From positions 62,001-126,000 of the forward strand of contig JAAFJP010000004.1 in assembly GCA_013298125.1 (NCBI GenBank): a DNA stretch of 64,000 bases, given 5' to 3'. The stretch comes from Cytophagales bacterium (GTDB lineage Bacteria; Bacteroidota; Bacteroidia; Cytophagales; Spirosomataceae). Below, one piece after another: positions 21,174 to 46,613 of the stretch; positions within the stretch are counted from its first letter, which is position 1, and every line of letters begins with the position of its first letter. The position numbers and the translations under genes were made by a program. The notes beneath the pieces are model-generated. The model searched no databases. It was not told the DNA's origin and worked only from the letters and a program-made list of their open reading frames with translations.

Positions 21174-21893
21174 ATGACATATTGCTTAGGAATAAAAGTA
21201 AAAAACGGACTCGTAGCCATTGCCGATAACAGAATCACGGCAGGTACAGAAGTCTATTCAAACAAGAAAGTATCAACCCACCAAATTGGGAATCATACGT
21301 TGTTTATTATGACGGCGGGTTTGCGGTCAATTAGAGATAAATCCATCATCTATTTCAATCAACTGACCAAAGAAAAAGGCTTCAAATTTGACTATATGTT
21401 TGAAGCCGTCAATGCCTTTGCGGAGATGATTCGGAAAGTAGCGAATGAAGATAAAGCCAATCTGAAAGAGGAAGGTTATAAGTTCAATTTACACTCAATC
21501 GTGGGAGGACAAATGGAAAAAGACGACGAACACAAACTGTTTTTGGTTTTTCCAGAAGGCAATTGGATTGAGATAAATGAAGGATTAAAATATCAAATTA
21601 TCGGTAATTCAAATTATGGTAAACCACTGTTAAACAGGACTTTATCTTACGAAACGTCGATTGAGGAAGCTTTAAAATTAGGTTTCCTTTCTTTCGATGC
21701 TACTCAAGTAAGTGCCAGCGATGTTGATTATCCGATTGATGTAGTGGTTTATCACAAAAACAGTTTTAAGCTCATAGAACATCGCCTTGAAAAGCAACAG
21801 ATGGAAGCCGTAACCAGACAATGGAATGCCCTAATGCAGAGTTCGGTTGATAGTTTGCAGAGTGAGTGGATTAGTGATGTGTTGAAATCATAA
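21174..21893 (+). CDS. Anbu-type proteasome-like peptidase
   Basis: 239-residue Ntn-hydrolase fold protein of the 20S-proteasome/HslV superfamily, Anbu branch. The sequence begins MTYCLGIKVKNGLVAIADNR. Thr2, exposed after Met removal, is the expected N-terminal nucleophile, and the DNR motif supplies the conserved Asp and Arg. A Lys in the SNKKVSTH region fits the active-site lysine. No propeptide is present, as is usual for Anbu. Its neighbours (alpha-E protein before, transglutaminase after) confirm the locus type. Palindromic repeats separate it from both. Confidence 0.9.
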   Translation: MTYCLGIKVKNGLVAIADNRITAGTEVYSNKKVSTHQIGNHTLFIMTAGLRSIRDKSIIYFNQLTKEKGFKFDYMFEAVNAFAEMIRKVANEDKANLKEEGYKFNLHSIVGGQMEKDDEHKLFLVFPEGNWIEINEGLKYQIIGNSNYGKPLLNRTLSYETSIEEALKLGFLSFDATQVSASDVDYPIDVVVYHKNSFKLIEHRLEKQQMEAVTRQWNALMQSSVDSLQSEWISDVLKS

Positions 21894-21898
21894 AATGA

Positions 21899-21992
21899 CC
21901 TCACCCCCCAGCCCCCTCTCCTTAATGAGAGGGGGAGCAAGCGGACGAATACTCCCCCTCTCACTAAGAAGAGGGGGCTGGGGGGTGAGGTT
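21899..21992. repeat. GC-rich palindromic repeat, family A copy 2
   Basis: ACCTCACCCCCCAGCCCCCT and its complement AGGGGGCTGGGGGGTGAGGT form the arms, with inner CCCTCTC/GAGAGGG hairpins. It is clearly homologous to the element at 61-152, including the middle GCGGACGAATA versus ACGGACTAATA. It lies 5 bp after the Anbu stop. Confidence 0.85.
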
Positions 21993-22000
21993 CAAATAAC

Positions 22001-22837
22001 ATGACCATAAAAATAGAACATGAACTTCTTTACAACTACACTGATGCGGTTCATTTAGAGCCGCATTATTTGTATTTGCAACCCAAAAGAAGTTCCCTTT
22101 TGACCCTGAAATCTTACCAACTCGACGTGAATCCACAACCAGATATTGTGGCAAAAAACCTCGATGCGACTGATAATACACAACAAATTCTGTTTTTCAG
22201 TAAGCCCACGAAGCAACTCCATATCAAGGCAACGTCTGTCGTGGAGACTACGGAGTTTAATCCGCTTTCCTTTGTTTATCATCCTTTTCAGAATAGTCAA
22301 TTACCGATAACGTATAGCGAACAATTACAGCAAACACTCTCTCATTATCTCGTAAAAAGAGACGTAACAACCCTAATTGACCAAACTGCCCGACAAATTG
22401 CGGGAAGTGTAAACTGGAATACGACTTCATTTCTGACAGAACTCAATAAATTTATTAACGCATTTGACTACGAAGTCAGGGAGGATGGACAGCCCAACTC
22501 GCCCGAAATGACGCTTTTGAGTCGCAAGGGTTCGTGTCGTGATTATTCGGTTTTGTTTATGGCAATGTGCCGAGTGATGGGCATTGCTGCCCGCTTTGTG
22601 AGTGGTTATCATTACGGCGACCCCGAACAAGCACAATATCTACACGCATGGGTGGAGGTATATCTCCCAGGTGGAGGTTGGCGTGGATTTGACCCTACAC
22701 AAAACTGTTTAGTTTCTGGAAAACACGTTCCATTGGGTGCGTCGGCAATTTCTGCGGCAGTTACGCCCGTGTATGGGACGTATCGTGGGAGTGCGAAGGG
22801 GAGTTTTGTAACGAAAGTTAAATTAATGGAATTATAA
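22001..22837 (+). CDS. transglutaminase-like cysteine peptidase of the Anbu locus
   Basis: 278-residue protein with an N-terminal bacterial transglutaminase-like domain (IKIEHELLYNYTDAVHLEPH) and a catalytic core. The triad is visible: Cys179 in RKGSCRDYSVLFMAMCRVMG, His in YLHAWVEVYLPGGGW, and Asp in GFDPTQN. Such proteins are usually peptidases or amide hydrolases rather than crosslinkers. In the conserved locus it is expected to work with the alpha-E protein and Anbu. The class IV aminotransferase starts 12 bp after its stop, so they share a transcript. Confidence 0.9.
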   Translation: MTIKIEHELLYNYTDAVHLEPHYLYLQPKRSSLLTLKSYQLDVNPQPDIVAKNLDATDNTQQILFFSKPTKQLHIKATSVVETTEFNPLSFVYHPFQNSQLPITYSEQLQQTLSHYLVKRDVTTLIDQTARQIAGSVNWNTTSFLTELNKFINAFDYEVREDGQPNSPEMTLLSRKGSCRDYSVLFMAMCRVMGIAARFVSGYHYGDPEQAQYLHAWVEVYLPGGGWRGFDPTQNCLVSGKHVPLGASAISAAVTPVYGTYRGSAKGSFVTKVKLMEL

Positions 22838-42908: not shown

Positions 42909-45386
42909 TTACTTCCGAATCACCGCCCCAATCTCCTTCTCAAACGCTCCCATCAATTTCTCCATCGTTTTGTCAATTACTTTGTCTGTAAGTGTTTGTT
43001 CGTAGTCTTGGAGCATGAAACTTACTGAATATGACTTCTTGCCTTCGCCCAAATTATCGCCTTGATATACGTCAAAAACGTTGATTTGCTTCAAGAGATT
43101 TTTCTCATAATTACGAGCTAATTTCTGAATTTGGTCAAAACTAACGGTTTTGTCAATCACCAAAGAAAGGTCACGGCGAACTTCTGGAAATTTTGGTAGT
43201 TCTACAAAAGTCGCTTTGTCGTTGAATTGTTTGAACAAATAGTCCCAATCAATATCCGCAAAGAAAACGTGCTGTTTTACCTCCGCTTTTTTGGCTACGT
43301 TTGGTTTTACTAAGCCCAATTTTACGACTTCTTTTTTGTTTACTAAATAACTTAATCCATATTCAAAAGTCGCTGAATTTTCGAGTGGTTTACTGTCAAA
43401 ATTCTTTACCCCCATTGTGCCTAAAACTTTGTTCACGGCACTCGTCAAACTATGAAAAACCACTTTTTGTGATTTCATTTGCCAAGTTTCTGATTCTGTG
43501 TTTCCCGTTACAAAAATGGCTAAATGACGCTTTTCGACATATTTATCATTGATTTTATGATAAGTTTTTCCAAAATCAAAAACCTTCAAATCTTTCTGAC
43601 GACGGTTGATATTGTACGCTAAAACTTCCAATCCCGAAAACAACATCGTCTGACGCATCACACCCAAATCTTCTGAAAGTTTATTCAAAATCTCGACGTT
43701 TTCATTGGGCAAATCTGCCTTAATTAATTCAGAATAAGCTGGTTTTGTCAAAGAATTGGTAATGATTTCGTTGAAGCCATTTGCTGCCAAAACTTGTGAT
43801 AATTTCAATTGCAAATTCTCACGGTCTTTGGCTGGGAAACTTGAAAGGAAATCCGTTCCGAGGGTTTCGGATAATTCGATATTATTGAAACCATAAATCC
43901 GTAAAATCTCTTCAATCACATCAGCCTCACGAGTTACATCCACCCGATAGGCGGGAACTGAAAAAGTAGCCCCCTCTGCCCCCAGAGGGGGAACTTCCGA
44001 GTCCGAATTGTTACCGTCTAAAATTCCCCCTCTGGGGGTTAGGGGGCTTATTTCTAATCTATCTAAAATATCTAATATCAACTCTCTCTCTAACTTTTTA
44101 CCAATCAGACGGTCAATATTTTTATAAGAAACTTGAACTCTGAAATCCTCAATTGGATTTGGATAAAAATCTGTAACTTCCGAAGACACTACGCCACCCG
44201 CTACTTCTTGAATCAACAAAGTCGCATATTTCAAAGCAAAATTATTTACATTCGGATTTGTGCCACGTTCATAACGGAAAGACGCATCTGTCTTCAAGCC
44301 ATGACGTTGGGCAGTTTTACGCACCGAGGCAGGGTCGAAGTAGGCAACTTCTAAATAAACTCTTGAAGTTTCGGGCTTAATTCCAGATTTTGTTCCACCA
44401 AAAATTCCTGCAATTCCGATGGCTTCTTCGGCATCACAAATCATTAAATCTGTTTCGCCTAATGTCCGTTCCACTTCATCCAAAGTCGTGAATTTTGTTC
44501 CTGCGGGGAGGTTTTTTACCACAATTTTTTGTCCTTTGATGGCGTGCCAATCGTAAGCGTGCATCGGTTGCCCGAGTCCGTGACAGATATAATTGGTAAT
44601 ATCCACGATGTTGTTAATCGAACGTAAACCAATGGTTTCCAAAGATTTACGTAACCATTCGGGCGATTCTTTTACCGTAACGCCATCAATAGTCAATCCA
44701 CAAAAACGTGGACAATCCGCTGGATTTTCTACGACTAATTCTATCGGGAGATCATTATTTTCAACCTTGAAATTTTCAATCGAAGGCAAGGTAAGTTCAC
44801 GACCCGTTTTGGCTTTTATATCACGAGCCACGCCCCAATGTGAAGCCGCATCTGCACGGTTTGGAGTCAGTCCGATTTCGATTAATAAATCTGCCTCTAA
44901 ATTGAAATATTGAGCGGCTGGCGTTCCATTAGGTAAGTCAGTATTCAAAACCAAAATCCCATCGTGCGATGTTCCTAAACCCAATTCGTCTTCTGCACAA
45001 ATCATTCCTTCGGATAGATGTCCGTAAGTTTTTTTACTTGAAATCTGGAAAATGGGTTCACCTTTGGCGTGGTCGTAAAGGGTAGTTCCAACCGTTGCAA
45101 CGATAACTTTTTGCCCTGCTGCTACGTTTGCCGCTCCACATACCACCTGCGAAGGCGTACCCGTTCCGATGTCCACGGTGGTTAAGCTGAGTTGTTTTTC
45201 TTTTACTTCAAAACGCTCGCAAGTAAGCACTTCGCCCACGACAAAACCTTGCAAGCCACCCAAGATAGCCTCATGGCGTTCAATGGATTCTACTTCGAGT
45301 CCCGTACCCGTGAGGAGTTCGTCCAATTCCTGAGCGGATTCTGTTATTTCTATGAATTGTTTAAGCCAATTTAGGGATATTTTCAT
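42909..45386 (-). CDS. pheT: phenylalanine--tRNA ligase beta subunit
   Basis: 825 residues with the full PheT architecture: tRNA-binding EMAP-like domain (about 40-150, VGEVLTCERFEVKEKQLSLT), B3/B4 editing region (about 210-380, NPADCPRFCGLTIDG), B5 domain (about 405-490), synthetase-like core and the C-terminal FDX-ACB domain (FPEVRRDLSLVIDKTVSFDQ). The beta subunit pairs with PheS, whose gene is not in the window. Inside B5, between LDRLEIS and TFSVPAYRVDV, an 81-bp palindrome adds 27 residues (PPLGAEG-type) to a loop. The gene is otherwise normal. Confidence 0.96.
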   Translation of the reverse strand: MKISLNWLKQFIEITESAQELDELLTGTGLEVESIERHEAILGGLQGFVVGEVLTCERFEVKEKQLSLTTVDIGTGTPSQVVCGAANVAAGQKVIVATVGTTLYDHAKGEPIFQISSKKTYGHLSEGMICAEDELGLGTSHDGILVLNTDLPNGTPAAQYFNLEADLLIEIGLTPNRADAASHWGVARDIKAKTGRELTLPSIENFKVENNDLPIELVVENPADCPRFCGLTIDGVTVKESPEWLRKSLETIGLRSINNIVDITNYICHGLGQPMHAYDWHAIKGQKIVVKNLPAGTKFTTLDEVERTLGETDLMICDAEEAIGIAGIFGGTKSGIKPETSRVYLEVAYFDPASVRKTAQRHGLKTDASFRYERGTNPNVNNFALKYATLLIQEVAGGVVSSEVTDFYPNPIEDFRVQVSYKNIDRLIGKKLERELILDILDRLEISPLTPRGGILDGNNSDSEVPPLGAEGATFSVPAYRVDVTREADVIEEILRIYGFNNIELSETLGTDFLSSFPAKDRENLQLKLSQVLAANGFNEIITNSLTKPAYSELIKADLPNENVEILNKLSEDLGVMRQTMLFSGLEVLAYNINRRQKDLKVFDFGKTYHKINDKYVEKRHLAIFVTGNTESETWQMKSQKVVFHSLTSAVNKVLGTMGVKNFDSKPLENSATFEYGLSYLVNKKEVVKLGLVKPNVAKKAEVKQHVFFADIDWDYLFKQFNDKATFVELPKFPEVRRDLSLVIDKTVSFDQIQKLARNYEKNLLKQINVFDVYQGDNLGEGKKSYSVSFMLQDYEQTLTDKVIDKTMEKLMGAFEKEIGAVIRK
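43968..44048. repeat. 81-bp palindrome inserted in frame within pheT
   Basis: The arms are AGCCCCCTCTGCCCCCAGAG plus GGGGAA and their near-complement TTCCCCCTCTGGGGGTTAGG...GGGCT. The length is exactly 27 codons. It lies in the B5 loop of PheT, so the reading frame is kept. It resembles the GC-rich intergenic palindromes in style. Confidence 0.8.
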
Positions 45387-45683: not shown

Positions 45684-46613
45684 TTAGATTAATCCCAATT
45701 TCACCTTTGCTATTATTTCTTCAATTTGTTTCATTGACAAACCTGAAATATTAACCAATAATTCATTGCTAATTCCATTCAAATGCCCTTTTTTGACAAA
45801 ATTAATAGTAGCTATTTCAATTCCTTGATTAGTTCCTTGATTGAAACCTTGGCTAATAAGTTGTTCTGCGGTTGTCATAATTGTATGATTTAAATTCAAT
45901 GAAACTTTTGTAAAAATAGTAATTAATTCTGTAATAGTCAATTCATCTGTGTTCTGAATATATAGAACTACGGATGTTTTAAAATGGTTATTGCCTTGAT
46001 TATCAATTAGTTTGAGTAATTCTACTAAACTATTCTCAATTGACCTAACGTATTTTTTAAAACGACTGTGCTTAAATAAAAGTGCCGAAATAGCCAGAAA
46101 TTTATTCTTGAAATTGGTGATTTGTTTATCTGGAATCGTATTCAGATTTATCAAATGAAAATCAAATTCTGGAATGTATCGTAATAAATCTTCGTCCAAA
46201 TTATCAAAATATGACCTCATCTGTTCATAATTCCACTTCTTCTTTCCATGATAAATTACGATAGGAATAATGGGAATAGGCTTTATTTTCTTTTGCTTAA
46301 AACCTGATTTCCAGACATTTAGAATATATTGATTCAGTTGCCAATGAGGATAGTCTTCTTTATAACTTTTATGTTCAAGCAATAAAGCAATTCGTACTTT
46401 ACCTTTACCCGCATATTCACAGGTATAAAGAATATCAGCAAAATGTTCTTCCAATTCCTCATCTATGAAAGAATTATTGTCGATTTGTAAGGTTGATAAA
46501 TCTAATTTTTTGACTAATTTTTCATCAACTAATTCTTCTAAAAAATTAGAAACTACGTCTATTCTCGAAAAAGTTTCTTTGAAGAACTTGTCGTGTACGT
46601 TCTGAATCTTCAT
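45684..46613 (-). CDS. Rpn family PD-(D/E)XK nuclease/putative transposase
   Basis: 309-residue Rpn/Transposase_31-type protein. The opening NVHDKFFKETFSRIDVVSNF is typical. The catalytic PD-(D/E)XK core is visible as FADILYTCEYAG (Asp) followed by IALLLEHKSYKED (Glu-x-Lys). The C-terminus has the repeated-Gly segment QGFNQGTNQGIEIATINF. Rpn proteins promote recA-independent recombination. The gene is not flanked by terminal inverted repeats, so it is not obviously an active IS. It is the second Rpn-like gene here; the first (42045) is frameshifted. Confidence 0.88.
   Translation of the reverse strand: MKIQNVHDKFFKETFSRIDVVSNFLEELVDEKLVKKLDLSTLQIDNNSFIDEELEEHFADILYTCEYAGKGKVRIALLLEHKSYKEDYPHWQLNQYILNVWKSGFKQKKIKPIPIIPIVIYHGKKKWNYEQMRSYFDNLDEDLLRYIPEFDFHLINLNTIPDKQITNFKNKFLAISALLFKHSRFKKYVRSIENSLVELLKLIDNQGNNHFKTSVVLYIQNTDELTITELITIFTKVSLNLNHTIMTTAEQLISQGFNQGTNQGIEIATINFVKKGHLNGISNELLVNISGLSMKQIEEIIAKVKLGLI

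Follow-up and report, generated by a model that had tools for sequence, protein, structure and literature searches.

A dispersed palindromic repeat of Arcicella in frame inside pheT, with signs that its gene copies stand in place of native loop codons

The window, meaning the whole 64,000-nt stretch of DNA that was analysed, contains the gene pheT, and a short GC-rich palindromic element is carried within its coding sequence. The features of the locus are the following (arms and centre are given without strand).

42909..45386, minus strand: pheT, phenylalanine--tRNA ligase beta subunit, the host gene, 825 aa with the frame intact (open reading frame and domains)
43887..44138, minus strand: B5-coding stretch that holds the element, residues 417-500 (Pfam PF03484, E 2.8e-17; coordinates derived from residue numbers)
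43968..44048, minus strand: palindromic element, 81 bp, equal to PheT residues 447-473 (sequence and covariance model match)
43968..43992: outer arm 1, AGCCCCCTCTGCCCCCAGAGGGGGA, an arm without TAA
43993..44024: variable centre, 32 nt, similar to the shared centre consensus (z 5.6, partly circular since the consensus was built from such copies)
44025..44048: outer arm 2, TCCCCCTCTGGGGGTTAGGGGGCT, of the TTA/TAA arm type

The product of pheT has the Pfam B3/4, CLM, FDX-ACB, tRNA_bind, and B5 domains, and its residues 1-823 align with chain B of PDB 3pco. Judged by gene names, the gene would be essential. An earlier note on this DNA had described an 81-bp in-frame insert of 27 codons at 43968-44048, and this description holds, since the element (SPLTPRGGILDGNNSDSEVPPLGAEGA) lies on a codon boundary and leaves the reading frame of 825 aa whole. 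The same note called the insert a palindrome. It is indeed self-complementary, but imperfectly so, consisting of an inverted pair of arms around a variable, non-palindromic centre. The arms, of 25 and 24 nt and GC-rich, pair with a one-base offset and differ in having TCTG in one and TAA in the other (read on the same strand). The 32-nt centre is not itself a palindrome and does not perfectly continue the arm pairing, and an ungapped comparison of the element with its own reverse complement gives a match at only 42 of 81 positions. Folded with 7-8 flanking bases per side, the element reaches -57.7 kcal/mol as RNA (z -7.2) and a z of -6.1 as DNA, and in each case none of 200 shuffles equals it. 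Its GC content is 60%, compared to 41% for pheT and 37% for the window. A 23-nt arm sequence occurs a single time in the window with up to three mismatches allowed (0 expected). The copy scores E 5.7e-17 against covariance model R1, a value that is not independent because the training set of the model includes this copy.

The placement of the insert in a loop of the B5 domain, also put forward in that note, agrees with the Pfam B5 match and with a low-pLDDT loop in an AlphaFold2 model. The model (input of 42 sequences, mean pLDDT 82.8, pTM 0.55) puts the element between a helix at residues 434-443 and a strand at residues 472-477, with residues 452-466 below a pLDDT of 50. To go by this prediction, the linker is probably an enlarged, disordered turn of the B5 domain, and its effect is expected to be near neutral. 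The next gene upstream of pheT, at 45684-46613 of the window, encodes a YhgA-like protein that matches Transposase_31 (PF04754, E 6.7e-39).

PheT was matched in 119 of 121 genomes of the bacterial family, with the source genome counted in, and 29 of the 118 other genomes having a match were taken into the alignment. Six of these 29 belong to the same genus, at 85-91% identity. The element is absent from the PheT site in all 29, and a weak arm-like sequence in one relative (L053) lies outside the PheT match. A scan of 80 named PheT loci for arms found none within pheT, and the sole match was upstream of the gene in L296. The loop is 13 aa long in all 16 of the top-ranked named relatives. Its length was resolved in 52 of the 80 loci and not in the other 28; it is 13 aa in 47 and longer in 5, and these five values are probably pattern artefacts. 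The source PheT keeps 3 residues of the 13-residue loop besides those of the element. The alignment of relatives had been proposed as a test of whether the 27 residues are a new arrival, and their absence from all 29 relatives, together with the lack of arms within the 80 pheT loci, rules out an old domain feature and indicates that the element in PheT is recent.

The source genome is a 5.9-Mb member of the genus Arcicella, in a draft of 72 contigs that is 95.5% complete, and the same-genus genomes used for comparison include A. aurantiaca, A. rosea, and one Arcicella MAG. A genome-wide search for the pattern CCCCCNNNGGGGGNNNGGGGG with one mismatch allowed found 110 matches, compared to a single one when the pattern was reversed as a control. 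Arm pairs were then counted in loci taken from these matches and from those of a covariance model built from 23 copies, and two other palindrome families were dropped by peptide or arm sequence. The repeat family that the earlier note had suspected is real: there are at least 54 paired copies, of which 37 are in frame in long open reading frames (ORFs) and 17 lie outside. Copies were classed as gene copies when they lie in frame in an ORF of 140 aa or more that extends 25 aa or more beyond the element on each side, so the in-frame status is partly a consequence of this definition. C34:214092, counted among the 37, is doubtful because aligned relatives carry stops in that frame. Four of the 17 non-gene copies (C56:181950, C1:189250, C1:61845, and C23:42897) lie 8 or fewer codons from where a long stop-to-stop ORF begins and may be translated. 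The unpaired arms C22:12625, C18:28750, and C6:62033 were excluded, and C29:56466 belongs to a three-arm copy. An artefact of assembly or contamination is unlikely because the copies are spread over many contigs and related genomes have them too.

The repeat is laid out as AGCCCCCT..CCCCCAGAGGGGG, a centre, and the inverted arm. Each arm contains a small CCCCC-AGA-GGGGG hairpin, and most copies end in AGCCCCC/GGGGGCT. Measured between the outer C/G runs, the copies of this genome are mostly 57-124 bp long, with two longer ones (57-171 bp overall), a median of 77 bp, and 5 of 54 at 107 bp or more. Of 291 genomes of the order, 4 have the exact arm, and one of these is from outside the family. 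A looser covariance model, scored on the best 23 or fewer candidates per genome so that counts are lower bounds, matches at least 80 of 200 family genomes and may include unrelated GC hairpins. Among the matches listed, at least 40 copies fall in other genomes: 21 in G077, 16 in G028, and 3, all non-gene, in G033. The intergenic copies C24:64954 and C8:92206 have counterparts at the same intergenic place in G077 (C260:11356 and C167:9475). Another palindromic repeat lies in the window at 21900-21989 (CTCACCCCCCAGCCCCCTCTCC... / ...AGAGGGGGCTGGGGGGTGAG), in the gap between an ORF that ends at 21893 and another that starts at 22001, and copies resembling it are in frame in long ORFs at C50:13121 (L093) and C2:37530 (L105).

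The genes that host the repeat are diverse. Hosts named by NCBIfam above the cut-off are two LeuS, ValS, UvrA, MurD, apolipoprotein N-acyltransferase, ArgC, methylmalonyl-CoA mutase, NirB, and PBP1C. Below the cut-off are one host that resembles D-Ala-D-Ala ligase and one that resembles BioF, several others have no NCBIfam match, and PheT was named through Pfam. The copy at C4:48962 (L073) fuses two glycosyltransferase genes into one ORF of 718 aa. The two ORFs are separate in two relatives, and the second starts separately in a third; the stop of the first gene and the start of the second, present in relatives, are lost. The two leuS paralogs of the genome, L062 on contig C2 and L064 on contig C3, are 91% identical in DNA and carry partly different palindromic inserts. 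At residue 293, one has the element and the other has 14 native codons; at residue 539, a family element in one corresponds to a small palindrome of another kind in the other; and at residue 664, a copy is common to both. The uvrA loop that holds a copy is also expanded, with another sequence, in the relatives G052 and G077 (L178 and L179), and certain loops therefore seem to be recurrent landing places. A lone arm of the family type was seen at 982-1004 of L145 (G077:C94), in the G077 ortholog of the heptosyltransferase-like host, away from the site used in the source genome.

What the element does to its host loop was followed by comparison with relatives. The search for relatives took 31 of the 37 gene copies, all but C3:131858, C45:54668, C45:26384, C45:31137, C34:214092, and C5:48989. 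Alignments were obtained for 31 of the 37, and these include some of the six omitted copies, which aligned to loci from neighbouring sites. C2:92248 and C3:131858 represent one insertion common to paralogs. In 26 of the 31 hosts aligned with same-genus relatives, no relative retrieved has an arm at the site. For the other five, the corresponding loop of G077 holds an arm, so that loops have either been hit repeatedly or hold an older copy common to both genomes. An anchored relative is available for 28 of the 31 hosts, and 27 pass the identity filter (C24:63585 failed). Native residues are missing in all 27, with a median of 11 and a lowest host median of 5. Because some of these relatives have an element of their own, the loops were recounted with arm-holding relatives removed, and native residues are missing in 26 of 26 hosts, the lowest single value being 5. 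Two or three relatives agree exactly on the number missing in 10 of these hosts. Against relatives of constant loop length, the net gains are 17/17/17, 16/16/16, 20/20/20, and 15/15/15. In G077, all 8 hosts with relatives have a positive median native loss, and three of the 8 use the same loops as the source genome; two single comparisons are without loss (L200 against G000, -1, and L202 against G036, 0). The earlier reading of an insertion is right in that the element is absent from the site in relatives, but what took place appears to be a replacement of loop codons and not a pure addition. The element, as these alignments suggest, stands in place of native loop codons. Given the variability of the loops that were compared and the distance of the relatives (about 85-91% identical for PheT), an exchange in one step is an inference.

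The copies in genes also differ in how they can be read. TAA or TTA in both arms is found in 3 of 37 gene copies compared to 9 of 17 others (p 0.0006), and in G077, among the matches listed, in 1 of 9 gene copies compared to 4 of 12 non-gene copies (p 0.34). Stop avoidance alone could explain this. The frames that the host does not use are more telling: their openness is 0.47 in gene copies compared to 0.25 in non-gene copies, each of which was taken in each of its own open frames (cluster bootstrap p 0.0004). In related genomes, among the matches listed, the values are 0.49 for 15 gene copies of G077 and G028 and 0.27 for 25 non-gene copies of G077, G028, and G033. All 12 arm frames are open in 18 of 37 gene copies and 1 of 17 others in the source genome and, among the matches listed, in 5 of 15 and 2 of 25 elsewhere. 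The excess of openness arises in part because the centres of gene copies are richer in GC (0.36 compared to 0.23). The idea that the family is selected to be translatable, or filtered for in-frame copies, gains support from this surplus of open unused frames in the source and related genomes.

Gly, Pro, and Ser are abundant in the encoded peptides. Two reading frames account for most left arms (by a simple pattern, 20 of the APxxP type, 14 of the SPLTP type, and 3 other). The arm triplets are readable in 56 of 94 copies, and the two match each other in 44, which exceeds all 5000 shuffles; where triplets depart from AGA, in 21 copies, 9 match and 12 do not. Matching triplets fit whole-element copying, correction of the palindrome, or selection on the stem. 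A strict coding subfamily defined by a shared centre was also considered and is weakened, as the G077 non-gene copies L196, L207, and L208 have this centre too and the shared-centre test is circular in the source genome.

Taken as a whole, the insert in pheT is likely to belong to a dispersed family of lineage-specific palindromic repeats that spread recently in the Arcicella genome, and to have arrived by substitution of loop codons. A copy would arrive through a substitutive event, for example, the capture of hairpin-forming single-stranded DNA, at the cost of a few tens of native bases. Within genes, most such events would be lost, and the survivors would be those whose stop-poor arms and hydrophilic centre are translated into a linker rich in Gly, Pro, and Ser at a surface loop able to accommodate it. 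Copies would persist in genes because they are read as such proline/glycine-rich linkers in loops that tolerate them. Short-patch double illegitimate recombination is a candidate mechanism; the phrase does not occur in the papers listed for it in the open-access literature. End joining based on Ku was dropped, as the genome has no match to PF02735.

Simple addition anywhere, with out-of-frame gene copies purged and surplus loop codons trimmed later, is a less probable account, though one with evidence in its favour. For 12 of the 17 non-gene copies, the two flanks lie next to each other in a relative of the same genus, either on separate ORFs or with an intervening stop (those of C6:64968, C11:69902, C2:52832, C9:33504, and C23:42897 could not be judged), and therefore no gene-splitting copy was recognised among the 54; the loops of relatives are also naturally variable in many hosts. 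Against this account, the loss of native codons extends to 27 of 27 hosts, often when measured on relatives of one constant loop length, and selection confined to the used frame would not be expected to leave the unused frames poor in stops.

Another candidate is a doublet of REP units, in which the arms are REPs in inverted orientation mobilised by a Y1 (RAYT-like) transposase. REPs and BIMEs are small hairpin units, often in inverted pairs, and some lie inside genes, including genes of other phyla, according to excerpts of PMC3733652. Each Arcicella arm likewise has a small hairpin, and the genome has five PF01797 matches, of which the two examined adjoin palindromic repeats. These repeats, however, differ in sequence from the family of the pheT element (family A), and no family-A arm occurs within about 1.5 kb on each side of the five Y1 matches in this genome, whereas in a REP/RAYT system of the GTAG/CGTC super-families a cognate Y1 gene would be flanked by the same repeat. 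By inspection, the GTAG or CGTC end tag is absent from most copies of the genome, and gene copies are here the majority (37 of 54). Mobilisation of this type is improbable. The two Y1 genes examined are L191 (G000:C6:27689), which adjoins palindromes of the GTCGCCCCGATGGGGC type in arrays, and L192 (G000:C4:109800), with the CTATTCCTAACGAGGGGTTTAAACCCC type; both look like REP/RAYT pairs in their own right. In the copies L200, L221, L224, L230, and L232 and in C23:42897 of the source genome, the end is GGTCGCC or GGGCGACC, which recalls the repeat that adjoins L191.

Still less probable is a MITE of an autonomous insertion sequence that has the same terminal repeats. The family has terminal inverted repeats, is multi-copy, and is patchy across genomes, and protein-coding MITEs do exist, such as the 107-bp form of Correia and ERIC, whose inverted repeats are fused in frame to genes (excerpts of PMC2229807). 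On the other hand, all but about three of the family-A arms in the fetched loci of this incomplete draft pair within 170 bp, the limit of the script, with no wider pair and no autonomous partner with the same ends noticed. No consistent target duplication was seen by eye in the flanks of filled sites. Searches gave neither a plasmid match nor an exact viral match. A native loop serving as the centre, with only the arms new and one placed on each side, would account for a centre length (about 10-12 aa) close to the number of missing residues in many hosts, but it is very improbable, as the two numbers are uncorrelated (rho 0.31, p 0.12, n 26) and a consensus is common to the centres of unrelated hosts, in G077 in 7 of 9 gene copies among the matches listed (p 0.02 or less).

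Among known systems, the family works in a manner analogous to the Rickettsia palindromic elements (RPEs) and, less closely, to in-gene REPs and coding MITEs, with a host in the Bacteroidota. Papers by Ogata reportedly describe RPEs in frame inside genes. RPEs and their Wolbachia equivalents are short stem-loop repeats that are intergenic as well as in frame in unrelated, often conserved genes, where they encode a compatible peptide (excerpts of PMC2229807 and PMC10969869). The Arcicella family shares the long stem-loop and the many in-frame copies in unrelated ORFs (37 of 54 by the ORF definition). It differs in host and in length, with 81 bp for the pheT copy and a median of 77 bp compared to 105-146 bp in Rickettsia (excerpts of PMC2229807). 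The likeness is one of description and does not extend to sequence, and the replacement of native codons is described here for the Arcicella family alone. Inverted repeats are also kept in protein-coding genes of Nematomorpha mitochondria, but these reach 284 bp and, unlike the Arcicella repeats, do not form a dispersed bacterial family (excerpts of PMC6649704). The family is not assigned to the RPEs or REP/RAYT because features of host, length, tag, or transposase do not agree, nor to the MITEs, with which it has terminal inverted repeats in common. Among the matches listed in the open-access literature, none reports elements of this kind from Cytophagales or Arcicella.

How such elements enter genes can now be tested, given 54 paired sites, same-genus genomes in which most of the sites compared are free of the element, and two leuS paralogs in one cell. 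A more far-reaching interpretation, which we hold tentatively and at less than even chances, is that of a loop-swapping mobile repeat adapted to genes, which would exchange a few tens of host bases for a two-armed palindrome that could be translated on both strands, often in several of their frames, into a hydrophilic and flexible linker. The arms of many gene copies are free of stops, and CCG-type bases there take the place of the TAA of intergenic copies. If this were true, the repeat would diversify the loops of core enzymes and could fuse neighbouring genes, as at C4:48962. In-frame palindromic repeats are known mainly from Rickettsiales, and genome reduction with weak selection is the usual explanation. 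A comparable family in the core enzymes of a 5.9-Mb Bacteroidota genome, with a signature of replacement, would untie the phenomenon from endosymbiosis.
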